Part shown: one piece after another, positions 28,789 through 38,781 of the stretch | Layout: every line of letters starts with the position of its first letter | Numbering within the stretch: position 1 is the stretch's first letter | Origin: Sorangiineae bacterium NIC37A_2 | GTDB lineage: Bacteria > Myxococcota_A > Polyangia > Polyangiales > Polyangiaceae | Direction: 5' to 3' | NCBI GenBank assembly: GCA_002085155.1 | Contig: NASX01000032.1 | Location: 1-53,257 of the forward strand | Length of the DNA: 53,257 nucleotides | Translations under genes and position numbers: made by a program | Notes under the pieces: generated by a model | The model's input: the letters and a program-made list of their open reading frames with translations, nothing else | Databases searched by the model: none | What the model was told of the DNA's origin: nothing

Positions 28789-30493
28789 GCGAGCCCGAGC
28801 TCGAGTCCTACCGCGCGTGCTCGCGGTCGGGTTCGCCTTTGCCCTGACTCCTTCCGCTGGCTGCTCCGGCTCCGGAGACAGCTCCGACTACTACACGTCG
28901 GGAGGTCGCAGCGGGAGTGGAGGACGAGGGGACCCGCTCGGAGGAGAGGGAAACCTCGGCGGCGAACCGTCCGGCGGAGGCTCCGGGGGACGCTCGAGCT
29001 CCGGAGGCGGGAGCGGTGGAGGCTTTACGCCGGAGCCGCTCACTTGTGAGACTCTCGTTTGTCAGGCGGGAACCTGTCGTGAGCGCGAAGACGGTGCGCG
29101 GTGTGATTGCCCCAGCGGGTTCGACGGCATCGACTGCACGGATACGAACGAATGTGGAGACCCTCTCTACTGTGGCGGCTTCCCCTGCCATAACGGATTT
29201 GGCGCTGTCGCTTGTTCGTGTGACACGATGACCGTGAGCGGGGGCTCGCCGCGCGATTGTGTCGACCTCGACGAGTGTGAGCTGTCCCCCTGTCACGAGG
29301 ACGCTGAGTGCGACAACATGTCGCCCGGGTATGCCTGTTCCTGTAAGTCCGGTTTCTTCGGGACGGGCTGGGATTGCGTCGATACAGACCCCTGTGCGGG
29401 CGATCCGTGCGGCGAAGGGACCTGTATTGCAACGAGCGAAGGAGCCGTCTGTCAGTGCCCTCTCGGGACCGGAGGGCCCGATTGCAGCGTGAACTGTGAT
29501 TCGCTCCCGCTCGCTGATGAAAGGCTCCAGGCGGCGGTGTTCAACGCCACGAACCTCTATCCGACGAGCATTGTCCCGGCTCGCGACCTCGCGAGCCTCA
29601 AGACCCTCGATCTGAGCGAGTATCTGGTTGAGAGCCTCGACGGTCTCGAGTGTTGGCCGACTCTCGAGCGTCTCGACGCGCGCATGCTCCGCCTCGATAC
29701 GGGGGCCGATGCGACGCCCCTCGAAGCCCTGGCAAGTCTGACGAACCTTCGCGAGCTCGATCTGAGCTGCAGCACGGGGCTCGACCTGAGCGTCCTCAAA
29801 GGGCACCCGACCCTTACCTCGCTCCGTCTGCATCAAGGGGACTGTGGCCCTGGGGATTTCTCAGTCATGGGTCTCGAAGCGCTCGGGACTTTGCCACGCC
29901 TCGAATCTCTCAACCTTGCCTATGTGTCCCTCGGTTCTGCCGCTGAACTTGGCGGACTCCGAGCTCTTCGCTCCTTGATTCTCGAGGATACAGACCTCGA
30001 CAGCACAGACGGCCTCGAGTCACTTCGATTGCTCTCGGACCTGTCCCTTACGAACAACGACATCACGGACGCTTCCGGTCTCGCAGCACTGACGAACCTG
30101 CGCAATCTGGGCCTCGGCGGGAACAGTCTCCCCAATATCGACTTCGTCACGTCGCTTCGGGAGCTCGAGGTCCTCGACGTGAACGACACGGGCATCGAGT
30201 CGCTCCCCGATCTCTCGAAGCTCTCGCGGTTACGTTGGCTCCGGGGGGGGGGCAACGAGCTCCGAGACCTGACGCCGCTGCTCAAAGCGCCCTCCTTGAT
30301 CCTCTCCGATCTGTCTTCGAACCGCATCGACAGCCTCGAGCCTCTCCGTGGCCAGAACCTGCGCGGCGATCTCACCCTCGACGACAACGCTCCCCTCGAG
30401 GAGGACTGCGACGAAACCCTCAAGATCGAGGCAGAGCTTCGCGTGAGCGGTCTTCGGGTGGTCTCGACCTGTGACGTGCCGGCGGAGGAGTGA
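28778..30493 (+). CDS. Lipoprotein with EGF-like and leucine-rich repeats
   Basis: The 571-residue protein has a signal ending at a likely lipobox (TPSAGCSG), a Gly/Ser-rich linker (residues 35-85), then about four cysteine-rich EGF-like modules (for example DTNECGDPLYCGGFPCHNGFG and DLDECELSPCHEDAECDNMSPGYACSCKSG, the calcium-binding EGF pattern) and eight to nine leucine-rich repeats from residue 260 (LASLKTLDLSEYLVESLDGL, LTNLRELDLSCSTGLDLSVL and so on). Both modules are typical of eukaryotic cell-surface proteins and suggest contact with another protein or cell. It overlaps the upstream lipoprotein gene by 11 bases and meets moeA by one base. Confidence 0.8.
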   Translation: MTSERARARVLPRVLAVGFAFALTPSAGCSGSGDSSDYYTSGGRSGSGGRGDPLGGEGNLGGEPSGGGSGGRSSSGGGSGGGFTPEPLTCETLVCQAGTCREREDGARCDCPSGFDGIDCTDTNECGDPLYCGGFPCHNGFGAVACSCDTMTVSGGSPRDCVDLDECELSPCHEDAECDNMSPGYACSCKSGFFGTGWDCVDTDPCAGDPCGEGTCIATSEGAVCQCPLGTGGPDCSVNCDSLPLADERLQAAVFNATNLYPTSIVPARDLASLKTLDLSEYLVESLDGLECWPTLERLDARMLRLDTGADATPLEALASLTNLRELDLSCSTGLDLSVLKGHPTLTSLRLHQGDCGPGDFSVMGLEALGTLPRLESLNLAYVSLGSAAELGGLRALRSLILEDTDLDSTDGLESLRLLSDLSLTNNDITDASGLAALTNLRNLGLGGNSLPNIDFVTSLRELEVLDVNDTGIESLPDLSKLSRLRWLRGGGNELRDLTPLLKAPSLILSDLSSNRIDSLEPLRGQNLRGDLTLDDNAPLEEDCDETLKIEAELRVSGLRVVSTCDVPAEE

Positions 30494-31713
30494 TGCTCGA
30501 CTTCGATGAGGCCCTCCGGATCTGTCGGGAGCTGGGCCAGGAGCTTGCGCTCCGCGACGCGGAGGAGGTCGACCTGGCAGAGGCTGCGGGCCGCGTCCTC
30601 GCGGAGGACGTGACGGCGCTCTTGCCTGTCCCGCGGGAAGACTACAGCGCGATGGACGGCTACGCGGTGCGATTGGCGGAGGTCGCTCTCGAGCGTCCGA
30701 TGAGGGTGTCCGGGGAGTCGCGCCCGGGGCGTCCGCTCCCGACCTTTGAGCCCGGGGCTGCGATCCGGATTTTTACGGGCGGAGCCGTGCCCTCCGGAGC
30801 GGACGCCGTGATCATGCAGGAGAACGCCCGGCGCGAGGGAGATCAGGTGACGTTTACGAGCCTGCCGCGTCCGTTCGAGAACGTTCGACGGGCGGGCGAG
30901 GACCTCAAGGTCGGAGAGCTCGCTTTGGGCCGAGGCGCGCGGCTCGACGGCGCGAAGTTGAGCCTACTCGCGATGCTCGAGCGCAGGCGCGTGCGGGTCG
31001 TGCGGCGGCCGAAAGTCGCGATCTTGTGCACGGGTGACGAACTCCGACCGCCCCTCGACCTCCGCGAAGTGACGCCGCCTTCGGAGGTGTCTGGACTCGC
31101 GGAGAGCAATAGCTTCGGGCTCAGGGAGCTCTTGCGTCACGCGGGCGGAGCGCCTCTCGAGCGCGTCCTTGTTGCCGACGAGCCGGAGGCGCTCCAGGGA
31201 GAGCTCAAAGGAGCGCTGGAGACATGTGATGCCATTGTGACGGTCGGTGGCGCGAGTGTCGGCGACCACGACTGGGCGAGGCCCGTCCTCACGGGGCTCG
31301 GCGCGCAAATTCTGGTTCCGAAGGTGCGCATGAAGCCGGGCAAGCCCTTCTTCTTGGCGAACTGTCGCGGCGTTCCCATCGTTGGCCTCCCGGGCAACCC
31401 GAGCTCCGCGCACATCACCTTCGCGCTCCTCGGCGTACCTTTTGTGAGGGCCCTGTCCGGAGCGACAGAGAGTGAACAGGAGCTCCTCAAGGTCCGCCTT
31501 CCCCTTCTGACCCCCTTTCGCCAGAAGCCCGGCCGCCGCAACTTTCTTCGAGCCCGTGTCGGCGCGTCGGGCGTCGAGATCCTCGAAAACCAGGCTTCGG
31601 GCGCCGCGACCTCCCTTGCCTGGGCGAACGCGCTCGTAGTGGTGCCCGAAGAGGTGAGTCAGCTTGCCGCCCGGGATCTGGTCGAAGTGGTTCTGCTGGG
31701 AGGGCTCGGGTGA
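30493..31713 (+). CDS. moeA: Molybdopterin molybdenumtransferase
   Basis: MoeA inserts molybdate into adenylylated molybdopterin, the last common step of molybdenum cofactor synthesis. The start is ATG 30493 with GGAGGAG three to nine bases upstream. Motifs: YSAMDGYAV near residue 50, FTGGAVPSGADAVIMQE, CTGDELRPP (residue 180), VGGASVGDHD, MKPGKPFF and GLPGNPSSA. Length 406 is standard. It touches the LRR lipoprotein stop, so co-translation occurs even though the functions seem unrelated. mobA follows after 58 bp. Confidence 0.95.
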   Translation: MLDFDEALRICRELGQELALRDAEEVDLAEAAGRVLAEDVTALLPVPREDYSAMDGYAVRLAEVALERPMRVSGESRPGRPLPTFEPGAAIRIFTGGAVPSGADAVIMQENARREGDQVTFTSLPRPFENVRRAGEDLKVGELALGRGARLDGAKLSLLAMLERRRVRVVRRPKVAILCTGDELRPPLDLREVTPPSEVSGLAESNSFGLRELLRHAGGAPLERVLVADEPEALQGELKGALETCDAIVTVGGASVGDHDWARPVLTGLGAQILVPKVRMKPGKPFFLANCRGVPIVGLPGNPSSAHITFALLGVPFVRALSGATESEQELLKVRLPLLTPFRQKPGRRNFLRARVGASGVEILENQASGAATSLAWANALVVVPEEVSQLAARDLVEVVLLGGLG

Positions 31714-31771
31714 GCAGCTTCGAGCAGACGACAGGCGGCCGAGGGCGAGGCGTACGCTTTGAGGCGCTGAA

Positions 31772-32428
31772 ATGACGCTCCTGGTCGGAATCTTCATCGG
31801 CGGCGGGTCGACGCGCATGGGGAGGACCAAGGGGCTCCTGGTCGCGACCCAAGGGAGCGCGGCGGAGCCGCGCGGGGACTCTTCGCGCTCGTCGGCCCCT
31901 TCCGGGCACTGGGGCTCCAGGGAAGGGGAGACGATCGTCGAGCGTACATTTCGGATTGTGCAGTCGGCGCTCCCGGCGGTGCCCGTCGTCCTCGTCGGAG
32001 ATCGAGACGAGTTCGATGGGCTTTGTCTCGAGCGCATCCGCGATGCCCAGCCGAATACGGGACCGCTCGGCGGACTGGTCGGGTTGCTCCGGTCCGCGAA
32101 GGAGCGCGGAGTTTCGCACATCCTCGCGCTCGGCTCGGACTTTCCCTACCTCACAGAGAGCTTACTTGTCCGGCTCGCGACGACACAGTCGAATGCCGCC
32201 GTGCTCGCGCCCTTTTTAGATAACCGCTACCAGCCGCTCGTCGCGCGTTACGCGGTCACGACGCTCGGGCATTTTGAGGCCTGTCTCGAAGCGACGAGCT
32301 ATGGCCTCCAGAGGCCTCTCAGGGAGCTCGATGCGGCCATGTTCGAACTCGAGGCCGTCGATCCAGAGGCGCTCGTCGACTGGGATACACCGGAGGACGT
32401 GCTGAGAGGGCGCTCAGGGGACGGTTGA
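31772..32428 (+). CDS. mobA: Molybdenum cofactor guanylyltransferase
   Basis: MobA joins GTP to Mo-molybdopterin to make the bis-MGD form used by DMSO-reductase-type enzymes such as nitrate reductases. The protein (218 residues) has the GTP-binding loop GGGSTRMGRTKGLL at the N-terminus, LGSDFPYLTESLL (substrate-binding Asp) and the closing VDWDTPEDV. A 30-residue Ser/Gly/Arg insertion follows the G-loop. It belongs with moeA, and its presence implies a bis-MGD enzyme in this organism. Confidence 0.9.
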   Translation: MTLLVGIFIGGGSTRMGRTKGLLVATQGSAAEPRGDSSRSSAPSGHWGSREGETIVERTFRIVQSALPAVPVVLVGDRDEFDGLCLERIRDAQPNTGPLGGLVGLLRSAKERGVSHILALGSDFPYLTESLLVRLATTQSNAAVLAPFLDNRYQPLVARYAVTTLGHFEACLEATSYGLQRPLRELDAAMFELEAVDPEALVDWDTPEDVLRGRSGDG

Positions 32429-36177: not shown

Positions 36178-36699
36178 TTACTGCTCAGAGCCGCGGTGAG
36201 CGTGAGGATGTTCGTCGTTTCCAGAGAAATCGGAATTATCCCCGGATGACGAGGAATGATCGTGTCCGCCATGGCCGCAGCGAGCATCTCTCCACCCGAC
36301 CCAGTAAGGCCCGTCGGGCCCATGCTCCCGCTTCCAGATCGGCACGTCGTGTTTGATGCGGTCGATGAGCAGACGACAGGCGCGGAAGGCCTCCGCCCGG
36401 TGAGGCGCGGCGGCGACGCAGATGACGGCGGCTTCACCGACTTCGAGGGAGCCGAGGCGATGGGCCGCTGCCACGCGCACGCCAGGGATCTCTTGTTCGA
36501 TGCCTGCTCCGATGCGCGCGAGCTGCTTCTCCGCCATCGAAGGGTAACCGTGGTACTCGAGCAGCGTCACAGGGCGACCGTCCTCATGATTGCGCACCAC
36601 GCCGAGGAAAAGATCGACGCCTCCGAACTCAGGCGCTGCTACGAGGGCGAGCAGTCGGGCGACGTCGAGGGGCTCGGTTTGAACAATGAAACGGCTCAT
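36178..36699 (-). CDS. moaE: Molybdopterin synthase catalytic subunit with His-rich tail
   Basis: MoaE holds cyclic pyranopterin phosphate while MoaD delivers sulfur to make molybdopterin. The core (residues 1-140) shows GVDLFLGVVRNHEDGRPVTLLEYHGYPSMAEKQL, AAAHRLGSLEVGEAAVICVAAAPHRAEAFRACRLLIDRIKHDVPIWKREH, including the catalytic lysines of the HDVPIWKRE segment. After it comes an unusual 30-residue tail rich in His, Ser, Asp and Gly (GHGGHDHSSSS...HPHAHRG). Its ATG overlaps the moaC stop by four bases. No moaD is in the window. Confidence 0.93.
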   Translation of the reverse strand: MSRFIVQTEPLDVARLLALVAAPEFGGVDLFLGVVRNHEDGRPVTLLEYHGYPSMAEKQLARIGAGIEQEIPGVRVAAAHRLGSLEVGEAAVICVAAAPHRAEAFRACRLLIDRIKHDVPIWKREHGPDGPYWVGWRDARCGHGGHDHSSSSGDNSDFSGNDEHPHAHRGSEQ

Positions 36700-37604
36700 G
36701 GGTCCTCGGCGCGCACGAAGAAATCACTTTGTCCCCCCGACTTGGAGATGAGGCGTGTGGGCCCGAGGGTCATCGCTCGGTCGATGCCTTTGAGCATGTC
36801 GTAGATGGTCAGGGCGGCAGCGGAGGCGCCGACCATCGCCTCCATTTCGACGCCGGTCCCGGCTCGAACCTCCGTTTCGCACAAAATCCGCAGGGTGTTC
36901 TTTCTGTTCTCAGCGGGGCTGAAGGAGATGTTGACGTGGGAGAGGGCCAGCGGATGACAGAGCGGGATCCAGTCGGAGGTCTTCTTCGCGCCCATGATTC
37001 CGGCCAAACGCGCCACCTCGAGCACATTCCCTTTCGGGGCATCGTTGCGCTCGAGAGCGCTGAAAGCGACCTCAGACATTGTCACAAAAGACTCAGCGAC
37101 TGCGCGACGTTTGGTCTCGGGTTTGTCGGTGATGCGCACCATGCGCAGCGCTCCGTCGTGACCGAGGTGTGTCGAGAGCGCGGTGGCTCCGACGATCTCT
37201 TCGTAGGCGAGATGAAGTCGAAAAAGGTCGGAGCGGGCGCGCCCCCGCGCTTCACACTTGACCAGCGCGTAGCGATCGAGCGGGCTCAGGCTCTGCCAGA
37301 CTTTGGGCGCGAGGGGGCGCTCGGGGCCGAGGGCTTCGAGGAGGTGGTCGGGGGCGACGCTCGGGGAGGGCTCTGGGATCTTGTCGAGCGACTCCGTCGT
37401 GGCGCCTTTCAGGAGCTCGCTGACGGCGCGTTCGTCGACGAGGGGCGCCTCGCCGAGCTCCGAGAGGGAGCGGCGCGTTTCCAGCGGCAACGCTTGGTAT
37501 GAAGGGAGGGAGAGCTTGAGTCCCGCGCGATCGAGGGCGCGCCGGGCGCTCAGGGACATGAGGGAATCCCCAGCTTCGGGACCTTCAAACTTGTACACCT
37601 TCAC
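36696..37604 (-). CDS. moaC: Nitrate reductase associated domain fused to MoaC
   Basis: The 302-residue protein starts at GTG 37602-37604. Residues 158-300 are MoaC (cyclic pyranopterin monophosphate synthase): VRITDKPETKRRAVAE, AGIMGAKKTSDWIPLCHPLALSHV, GVEMEA at 251-256, AALTIYDMLKGID and KSGGQS. MoaC with MoaA makes the pterin intermediate. Residues 1-140 are an extra domain: KFEGPEAGDSLM, ALDRAGLKLSLPSYQALP and VWQSLSPLDRYALVKCEARG. The order of KFE..DSL, the LD.(C/A)GIKLSL segment, a proline-rich spacer and W..L(T/S)PL(Q/D)R(F/Y)ALxK resembles the cyanobacterial nitrate reductase associated family (NarM). That domain match is my recollection, not a search. Four-base overlap with moaE. 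Confidence 0.85.
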   Translation of the reverse strand: MKVYKFEGPEAGDSLMSLSARRALDRAGLKLSLPSYQALPLETRRSLSELGEAPLVDERAVSELLKGATTESLDKIPEPSPSVAPDHLLEALGPERPLAPKVWQSLSPLDRYALVKCEARGRARSDLFRLHLAYEEIVGATALSTHLGHDGALRMVRITDKPETKRRAVAESFVTMSEVAFSALERNDAPKGNVLEVARLAGIMGAKKTSDWIPLCHPLALSHVNISFSPAENRKNTLRILCETEVRAGTGVEMEAMVGASAAALTIYDMLKGIDRAMTLGPTRLISKSGGQSDFFVRAEDP

Positions 37605-37767: not shown

Positions 37768-38781
37768 GTGGCGATGCTGCTGGATCGGCTGGGCCGACCG
37801 CTGTCCGACTTGCGTTTGAGCGTCACGGACAGGTGCAACTTTCGCTGCCCCTATTGCATGCCACGGGGGGCACCGGGGTCATCGTCGTTCCTGCCGAGGA
37901 AAGAGATCTTGAGCTTCGAGGAGCTCACTCTCGTCGCGAGAGTGTTCCGAGAGCTGGGCGTGCGGAAGATCAGGCTGACGGGAGGTGAGCCGCTCTTACG
38001 CCGGGACTTGCCGCGGCTGGTCGAGCGCTTGCGCGCGCTCGATGTGGAGCTTGCCCTCACGACGAACGGCGTGCTCCTGCCGCGCTTTGCGCGCGAGCTC
38101 CGGCAGGCGGGGCTCGATCGGGTGACGGTCAGTCTCGACGCGCTCGACGGGCAGGTGTTTCAGGCGATGAGCGACGCGCCGGGGTTCGGGCCCGCAGATG
38201 TCCTCGCGGGGATCGAGGCGGCGGAGCGAGCGGGGTTCACGGTGCTCAAGATCAACTGTGTGGTGCGCCGGGGTGTGAACGATAGCGAAGTCCCTCGGCT
38301 CATCGAACGCTTCGCTCACACTCCGCATGTCCTTCGCTTCATCGAGTATATGGACGTCGGGACGCAGAACGGCTGGCGGAGGAGCGAAGTTCTCCCGACA
38401 GCCGAGCTCCAGCGAAAACTCGAAGAGCTCGGCGAGCTGATCCCGTTGCCGCGGGAGCGAGCGAGCGACGTCGCCGAAGAGTACCAATTTCGCGGCGCGC
38501 GCCTCGGGTTCATCTCGAGCGTGAGTGCGCCTTTCTGTGGGAGCTGCAGTCGAGCGCGGGTGGCCGCGGATGGCGGGCTCTTCGGATGTTTGTTTGGGCC
38601 TCGTCTGGTCGATCTGAAGCCAATTCTTCGCGGAAGCGCTGACTCAGAACGAGAACTCGCGGACACGATCGCGCGGTATTGGCGCGCGCGCGCCGATCGC
38701 TACTCGGAAGAGCGGAGCAAGCAGAGGCGACTCCCTCTCGCATGGGGAGCTCGCGCGGAGATGTCCCGGCTCGGCGGGTGA
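37768..38781 (+). CDS. moaA: GTP 3',8-cyclase
   Basis: MoaA is a radical SAM enzyme that rearranges GTP to the first pterin precursor of molybdenum cofactor. It binds one 4Fe-4S cluster through C23-x3-C27-x2-C30 (DRCNFRCPYC) and a second through FCGSC...GLFGC in the C-terminal third. The protein ends in LGG, the conserved double glycine needed for activity. Start GTG 37768 or ATG 37774. It is divergent from moaC-moaE, giving a shared 163-bp control region. Confidence 0.94.
   Translation: MAMLLDRLGRPLSDLRLSVTDRCNFRCPYCMPRGAPGSSSFLPRKEILSFEELTLVARVFRELGVRKIRLTGGEPLLRRDLPRLVERLRALDVELALTTNGVLLPRFARELRQAGLDRVTVSLDALDGQVFQAMSDAPGFGPADVLAGIEAAERAGFTVLKINCVVRRGVNDSEVPRLIERFAHTPHVLRFIEYMDVGTQNGWRRSEVLPTAELQRKLEELGELIPLPRERASDVAEEYQFRGARLGFISSVSAPFCGSCSRARVAADGGLFGCLFGPRLVDLKPILRGSADSERELADTIARYWRARADRYSEERSKQRRLPLAWGARAEMSRLGG

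Follow-up and report, generated by a model that had tools for sequence, protein, structure and literature searches.

A MoaC protein with an N-terminal NarM domain in a relative of Polyangium, and a possible adaptor role for NarM in supplying bis-MGD enzymes

MoaC, a hexamer in E. coli, makes cyclic pyranopterin monophosphate (cPMP), several steps ahead of the bis-MGD cofactor. NarM is known from a different setting: Maeda and Omata are said to have reported in 2004 that a cyanobacterium requires it for nitrate reductase activity. Why should the two be joined in a single protein? The question is raised by a 53,257-nucleotide stretch of DNA from Sorangiineae bacterium NIC37A_2 (contig NASX01000032.1, positions 1 to 53,257; hereafter the window), in which a minus-strand gene at 36696-37604, with a GTG start and a TGA stop at 36696-36698, encodes 302 amino acids that hold both domains. 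The features of the locus are as follows:

36696..37604, minus strand: NarM-MoaC fused gene (open frame, Pfam and NCBIfam)
37185..37604, minus strand: NarM (PF09655) domain, residues 1-140 (all-helical model, apparent internal repeat)
37155..37184, minus strand: inter-domain linker, residues 141-150 (pLDDT <50 at 142-148)
36732..37142, minus strand: MoaC domain, residues 155-291 (Pfam; counterparts of the E. coli active-site residues conserved)
36178..36699, minus strand: moaE, its ATG overlapping the stop of the fused gene (ATGA)
37768..38781, plus strand: moaA, divergent (TIGR02666, 344.2 bits, cut-off 284.05)
30475..31710, plus strand: moeA (open frame with approximate start)
31763..32425, plus strand: mobA-like NTP transferase gene (open frame with approximate start)

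The C-terminal half of the protein matched the Pfam MoaC profile PF01967 over residues 155-291 (E 4.7e-49, 166.3 bits, cut-off 27) and reached the cut-off of the NCBIfam model TIGR00581 (168.6 bits, cut-off 141.5). The N-terminal half matched PF09655 (Nitr_red_assoc) over residues 16-122 with E 4.3e-7 and 30.9 bits, reaching the cut-off of 25, and scored 40.3 bits (E 4.6e-10) with the NCBIfam NarM model TIGR02664, below its cut-off of 110. By these profile scores the protein is a member of PF09655 that lies outside NCBIfam's narrower NarM subfamily. Its likeness to NarM consists of the profile match, the length and a set of invariant residues (PL..R..LD..G.KLSL..W and W..L....R), and canonical NarM proteins aligned with a profile of ten fused relatives and the free-standing L040, the window protein left out, at an hhalign E of 5.5e-20 over 136 columns. 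The GTG start agrees with the script-chosen starts in relatives (VKLY.F, MKIYAF). The initial annotation had read the N-terminal unit as a NarM-family domain fused to MoaC; the family assignment proved right by the PF09655 score and the hhalign match, and the fusion by the presence of both domains in the 302-residue frame, with the qualification that the profile check of the N-terminal unit succeeded for PF09655 and failed for TIGR02664. It is highly improbable that the PF09655 match is spurious and the N-terminal half an unrelated helical domain. Such a reading would account for the missed NCBIfam cut-off, for the excess of just 5.9 bits over the Pfam cut-off, and for three related proteins with degenerate or altered MoaC halves (L069, L072 and L070) that score 23.1 to 24.4 bits, slightly below Pfam's cut-off, but all 38 of the 38 genome matches counted exceed that cut-off, and both the profile-profile match and the shared near-invariant residues argue against it.

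The MoaC half has counterparts of all of E. coli K51, H77, E112, E114, D128 and K131, and the active-site residues are retained in 20 of 23 aligned NarM-MoaC-type proteins. We presume that K51, H77, D128 and K131 have catalytic roles; K51 and D128 variants are named in PDB titles among the MoaC structure matches. A predicted full-length model (pLDDT 88.5, pTM 0.54) gave a MoaC half that matched MoaC structures, the best being 4pyd (4pyd_C; Z 22.5, rmsd 1.9, 153 residues). Because the active-site residues are intact and the model matches MoaC structures, the MoaC half should be catalytically able. It is the sole MoaC match in the window's genome, which is given as 97.99% complete. Linker residues 142-148 are of low confidence, and the mutual placement of the two halves is not predicted (pTM 0.54). 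The protein thus resembles MoaC (TIGR00581; E. coli 1ekr, 4pyd) over the whole domain, in its active-site residues and in its predicted fold, and differs from it by the extra 140 N-terminal residues. It also resembles the bifunctional MoaC/MoaB (PRK03604), MoaC/MOSC (PRK14499) and MoaC/MobA (PRK14500) proteins in that MoaC is joined to another cofactor-related domain, but here the partner is NarM, on the N-terminal side, and none of the three cut-offs was reached (for PRK14500, 107.7 bits against 606).

What surrounds the fused gene is consistent with cofactor synthesis. In addition to moaE and moaA, the moeA and mobA-like genes are found at a distance of roughly 4 to 6 kb, so that the nearby mobA mentioned in the initial annotation is indeed there, accompanied by moeA. 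Four ThiS/MoaD-type matches in the genome are all on other contigs, and no molybdoenzyme was found beside the fused gene in the window's genome (contigs C3 and C63 compared). The annotation had also proposed looking for nitrate-reductase-type genes elsewhere in the genome, and two turned up, one NasC-like and one that we call enzyme X. Both have Cys-Met at what we take to be the place of the metal ligand in molybdoenzymes; NapA-like proteins are also Cys-Met, and the formate-dehydrogenase-like enzyme of genome G254 is Cys-His. Enzyme X (L074, 6819-10699, contig C63) is an Fdh/NasA-like catalytic subunit with a DmsB-DmsC-like partner gene; it falls below the cut-off of every NCBIfam model among the best 25 matches listed, and is possibly an undescribed nitrate-reductase-type enzyme. 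At a related locus, L084, the genes stand in the order DmsB-DmsC-like gene, Cys-Met enzyme X, NarM-MoaC and moaE, with the first possible starts of X and of NarM-MoaC each 15 bases past the preceding stop and moaE overlapping the end of the fused gene by ATGA. A homologue of the L084 enzyme X is present in the window's genome (1183 bits).

Across the phylum, PF09655 was present in 38 of 377 sampled genomes, and among 14 named control genomes it occurred in Synechococcus elongatus only. The neighbourhoods of the 37 PF09655 genomes other than the window's were retrieved. The fusion is real and more than chance, with no read-through, because NarM and MoaC are read in a single frame in 21 of these 38 genomes (the window's included, and G041, whose MoaC half is altered, counted in) and at 42 of 63 distinct NarM loci; a read-through or assembly artefact was rejected on the count of 21 genomes. 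All 21 belong to the family of Polyangium, which is also that of the window, locus L041 of genome G370 being equal to L111 of Polyangium sp. 15x6. Named genomes were scanned with a single motif that derives from this group and so reaches no distant NarM proteins; this gave 37 loci, including Polyangium fumosum DSM 14668 and Polyangium sp. 6x1, 15x6 and y55x31; the named Polyangium strains with the fusion are represented by L109-L112.

Merging near-identical copies reduced 75 loci to 63 distinct NarM domains. By a first search these comprised 42 NarM-MoaC, two NarM-MoaC-MoaE, one NarM-MoaE, two NarM-MobA and 16 partnerless loci, and Pfam resolved the last group into two MobA-NarM proteins, two with a degenerate MoaC and 12 without a second domain. 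The Pfam run covered the NarM frames of 30 relatives, out of the 63 loci: 12 free-standing, eight long NarM-MoaC, and ten unusual (two MobA-NarM, two NarM-MobA, two NarM-MoaC-MoaE, one NarM-MoaE and three with degenerate or altered MoaC). At E 0.01 the only partners in these 30 frames were MoaC, MoaE and MobA-type NTP transferase; one further weak Pfam match, below cut-off, lies inside a MoaE domain, and Pfam found no third domain in the eight long NarM-MoaC frames. In four NarM-MoaC proteins (L063, L092, L094 and L102) some 84 to 150 residues separate the domains, and in L063 and L094 the intervening stretch abounds in proline, serine and arginine. In a tree of the 63 NarM domains the NarM-MobA (support 95/91) and MobA-NarM (100/100) proteins form separate groups and the two NarM-MoaC-MoaE triples lie apart; the deep order of NarM-MoaC is poorly resolved, and that label requires 10 changes. 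Because the two MobA arrangements form separate supported groups, we conclude that NarM was fused with MobA on two or more occasions, once on either side, as well as with MoaC and MoaE.

Some relatives keep NarM beside a MoaC half that has changed. In genomes G006 (L069, 7218-8300) and G349 (L072, 2982-4187), NarM is followed by a degenerate MoaC scoring 31.8 and 26.8 bits (cut-off 27) and devoid of the residues of K51, H77, E112, E114 and K131. Both fusions have a strongly hydrophobic C-terminal stretch, averaging 2.4 and 2.6 in hydropathy across 19 residues, that is probably membrane-spanning. Each of the two genomes contains a pair of MoaC matches, and the better one, at about 1e-49, we take to be a normal second MoaC. 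In G041 (L070, 2077-2949) there is a single MoaC match, in which P, Y and D take the places of K51, H77 and E112; this genome nevertheless carries enzyme X. Since NarM is kept while MoaC residues are lost, NarM seems to persist where MoaC activity has probably gone, suggesting that it has an independent role. In one genus, the near-complete genomes G036 and G089 have a NasC-like gene of >760 bits and no MoaC match.

The NarM half by itself was modelled with high scores (pLDDT 95.5, pTM 0.89) as a nearly all-helical domain. With this model Foldseek gave no PDB match at E <= 0.001 and VIA-align a top Z of 3.1 among 116 chains, and a PDB sequence search with a profile of 29 NarM domains returned nothing credible (two matches, E 0.44 and 0.95). 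NarJ/TorD and FdhD are system-specific molybdoenzyme chaperones; NarM would resemble them in type of proposed role, serving bis-MGD insertion, and none of them was among the PDB search matches of the domain. The NarM domain looks like a tandem duplication of a helical unit. Profiles of residues 14-60 and 82-128, windows picked by eye, aligned with an hhalign probability of 85.7, or 72.2 on gap-free columns. In a first shuffle test (n=60, gap columns kept; mean 11) the maximum of 130.7 exceeded the observed 26.4, and because we took this high maximum for an effect of the gap columns, the test was redone on gap-free columns, where none of 200 shuffles reached the observed score of 23.4; 14 MoaC stretches used as a control scored 6.6 to 15.0. 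The motif W-x2-L-x4-R is present in each half, the first W being Y in the window protein. Over 46 sequences, the paired positions are occupied as W36 in 43 and W103 in 45, L39 in 41 and L106 in all 46, and R44 in 45 and R111 in all 46.

Which molybdoenzymes accompany the fusion? We compared 35 genomes of the family, 21 with the fusion, two with the degenerate form and 12 without PF09655, by co-occurrence tests that were chosen post hoc and that ignore relatedness. PF01568 at >=40 bits was found in 20 of the 21 fusion genomes, and the remaining one, G337, has enzyme X. If either feature is taken to mark an enzyme of the DMSO reductase family, all 23 genomes with the fused or degenerate form have one, against six of the 12 without PF09655 (p 0.0006), with the 40-bit line drawn by us to exclude low-scoring matches in frames some 1,100 residues long, which we take to be cofactor-free ActB-like proteins. 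At Pfam's own cut-off the counts are 22/23 and 9/12 (p 0.11), or 23/23 when G337 is admitted by enzyme X (p 0.03).

Nitrate-reductase-type enzymes, defined as NasC at >=650 bits, NapA-like, NarG, enzyme X or Cys-Met NasA-like, occurred in at least 15 of 21 fusion genomes and at least five of the 12 family genomes without PF09655 (Fisher p 0.14), both counts being lower bounds. These types were assigned from the NasC, NapA, NarG and X searches, from Cys-Met in chosen enzymes and from FdhF/YdeP rather than gene by gene, and the NasC search scored the two best candidates per genome. When FdhF/YdeP enzymes are admitted alongside the nitrate type, the counts become 18/21 and 5/12 (p 0.016). In the phylum as a whole, broad Fdh/Nas-like matches showed no enrichment (14 of 38 genomes with PF09655 vs 120 of 339 without, p 0.86), while NasC at >=650 bits, again a line of our own, was found in 7/38 vs 14/339 (p 0.002); the NCBIfam NasC cut-off of 1100 was reached in none of the 377 genomes, and no NapA match reached its NCBIfam cut-off. 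Enzyme X at >=60% identity was present in four of the 35 family genomes, all among the 21 with the fusion.

Outside the phylum, a protein search returned seven plasmid records with a NarM relative, six from acetic acid bacteria and one from Agrobacterium. In six of the seven, NarM lies directly upstream of a gene annotated as an FdhF/YdeP oxidoreductase, and the one such product that was checked scored 928.5 bits (cut-off 582). The three Komagataeibacter plasmids also carry moaA, moaD, moaE and fdhD, joined on one plasmid by a gene for an NTP transferase, and the Kozakia plasmid has an NTP transferase gene and fdhD, so that fdhD is near NarM in four records and moaA, moaD and moaE in three. 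The Gluconobacter stretch stops at the end of its record. For the Agrobacterium gene, no cofactor gene or FdhF/YdeP is listed within 8 kb in a gene table that is incomplete. Plasmid-borne sets made up of NarM and FdhF/YdeP, in many cases accompanied by cofactor genes, occur in the acetic acid bacteria (NZ_CP036405.1, NZ_CP023037.1, NZ_CP041350.1, NZ_CP015170.1 and NZ_CP014675.1), and come after cytochrome bd oxidase genes in the Acetobacter and three Komagataeibacter records. NarM is free-standing on plasmids and at 12 of the 63 loci, unlike the MoaC-fused domain of the window, and it extends beyond genomes with a nitrate-reductase-type enzyme. For cyanobacteria, a published co-occurrence module comprises the nitrate reductase associated protein, nitrate reductase, cofactor proteins A and C, MoeA and 'MoeE' (PMC5862535).

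The initial annotation held that the fusion would physically tie the making of the cofactor precursor to the maturation of nitrate reductase, a reading under which NarM would be a dedicated nitrate reductase chaperone, in keeping with its name. Several findings suit this reading: the NasC-like enzyme and enzyme X in the window's genome, both Cys-Met; the commoner occurrence of NasC at >=650 bits with PF09655; the order of genes at L084; the presence at L037 of a NapA-like gene 1.4 kb away from NarM; and the cyanobacterial module. We nonetheless consider it unlikely. Six of the 21 fusion genomes have no NasC-, NapA-, NarG- or X-type match in the searches made, three of those six have an FdhF/YdeP enzyme, PF09655 is missing from 14 of the 21 genomes with NasC at >=650 bits, and six of seven plasmid NarM genes precede FdhF/YdeP. 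The specific tie to nitrate reductase is therefore not supported, given 15/21 vs 5/12 genomes with a nitrate-type enzyme and the plasmid neighbours, and on the same grounds a nitrate-only role was rejected; we infer that a connection with bis-MGD enzymes at large is the better explanation.

Two further readings of the fusion were considered. That it merely secures co-expression of two pathway genes whose halves are independent would agree with the overlapping or abutting genes of these clusters, with the MoaC/MoaB, MoaC/MOSC and MoaC/MobA proteins already in NCBIfam models, and with the tolerance of linkers of about 84 to 150 residues; it strikes us as improbable, in that NarM is variously arranged with partners of three kinds, every one a cofactor enzyme, and the fusion persists across a family. 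Slightly less probable still is a role for NarM in the MoaC step, for example in docking MoaA for product transfer or in regulating MoaC. MoaC is the usual partner, at 44 of the 63 distinct loci when the two triples are counted, and moaA lies in many of the fetched neighbourhoods, but NarM is also fused to MobA or MoaE without MoaC, stands free beside mobA-like or molybdoenzyme genes, and is kept in G006 and G349 although the MoaC half has lost residues of the active site.

The reading that we favour, at a confidence just short of even, is that the window encodes a working MoaC carrying a NarM adaptor for the supply or insertion of cofactor to enzymes of the bis-MGD (DMSO reductase) family, and not to nitrate reductase alone. 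Because MoaC acts too early in the pathway for a direct hand-over to an apo-enzyme, a scaffold or adaptor role is favoured. The protein would be a cyclic pyranopterin monophosphate synthase with NarM on a linker, and NarM a protein-protein adaptor that may bind the client enzyme or another cofactor enzyme and so serve cofactor supply to, or insertion into, the apo-enzymes. Since MoaC forms oligomers, several copies of NarM would sit on the same particle, and the fusion could hold an early step of cofactor synthesis beside later ones and the client enzyme, perhaps with channelling; moaE would be translationally coupled to the fused gene. The repeated fusion of NarM to MoaC, MoaE and MobA, the gene order at L084, the DMSO-reductase-family enzymes in 23 of 23 against six of 12 family genomes and the position before FdhF/YdeP on six of seven plasmids speak for such an adaptor. 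Against it speak the shrinking of that enrichment at Pfam's own cut-off, the distance of the fused gene from any molybdoenzyme in the window's genome, the six of 12 family genomes that have bis-MGD enzymes without PF09655, the lack of phylum-wide enrichment with broad Fdh/Nas-like matches, and the Agrobacterium neighbourhood. A broader version of the adaptor reading is conceivable, though we are doubtful of it: PF09655/NarM would be a general scaffold of bis-MGD cofactor assembly, built from a duplicated helical unit and fused lineage by lineage to MoaC (early), MoaE (middle) and MobA (late), with the MoaC half decayed in one genus, maybe into a membrane-anchored oligomerisation platform, and with a name that reflects its discovery only.

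NarM and MoaC are each known domains, and MoaC has been described in fusions before. In searches of open-licence literature we did not find the NarM-MoaC fusion, the range of NarM partners or the non-nitrate neighbourhoods, some of which InterPro's architecture lists may show. The repeated fusion to three cofactor-synthesis enzymes shows where to seek the action of NarM, which can be tested with purified proteins and with the named Polyangium strains. If the adaptor reading is true, the NarM family would serve bis-MGD enzymes beyond nitrate reductase, and its present label would mislead annotation.
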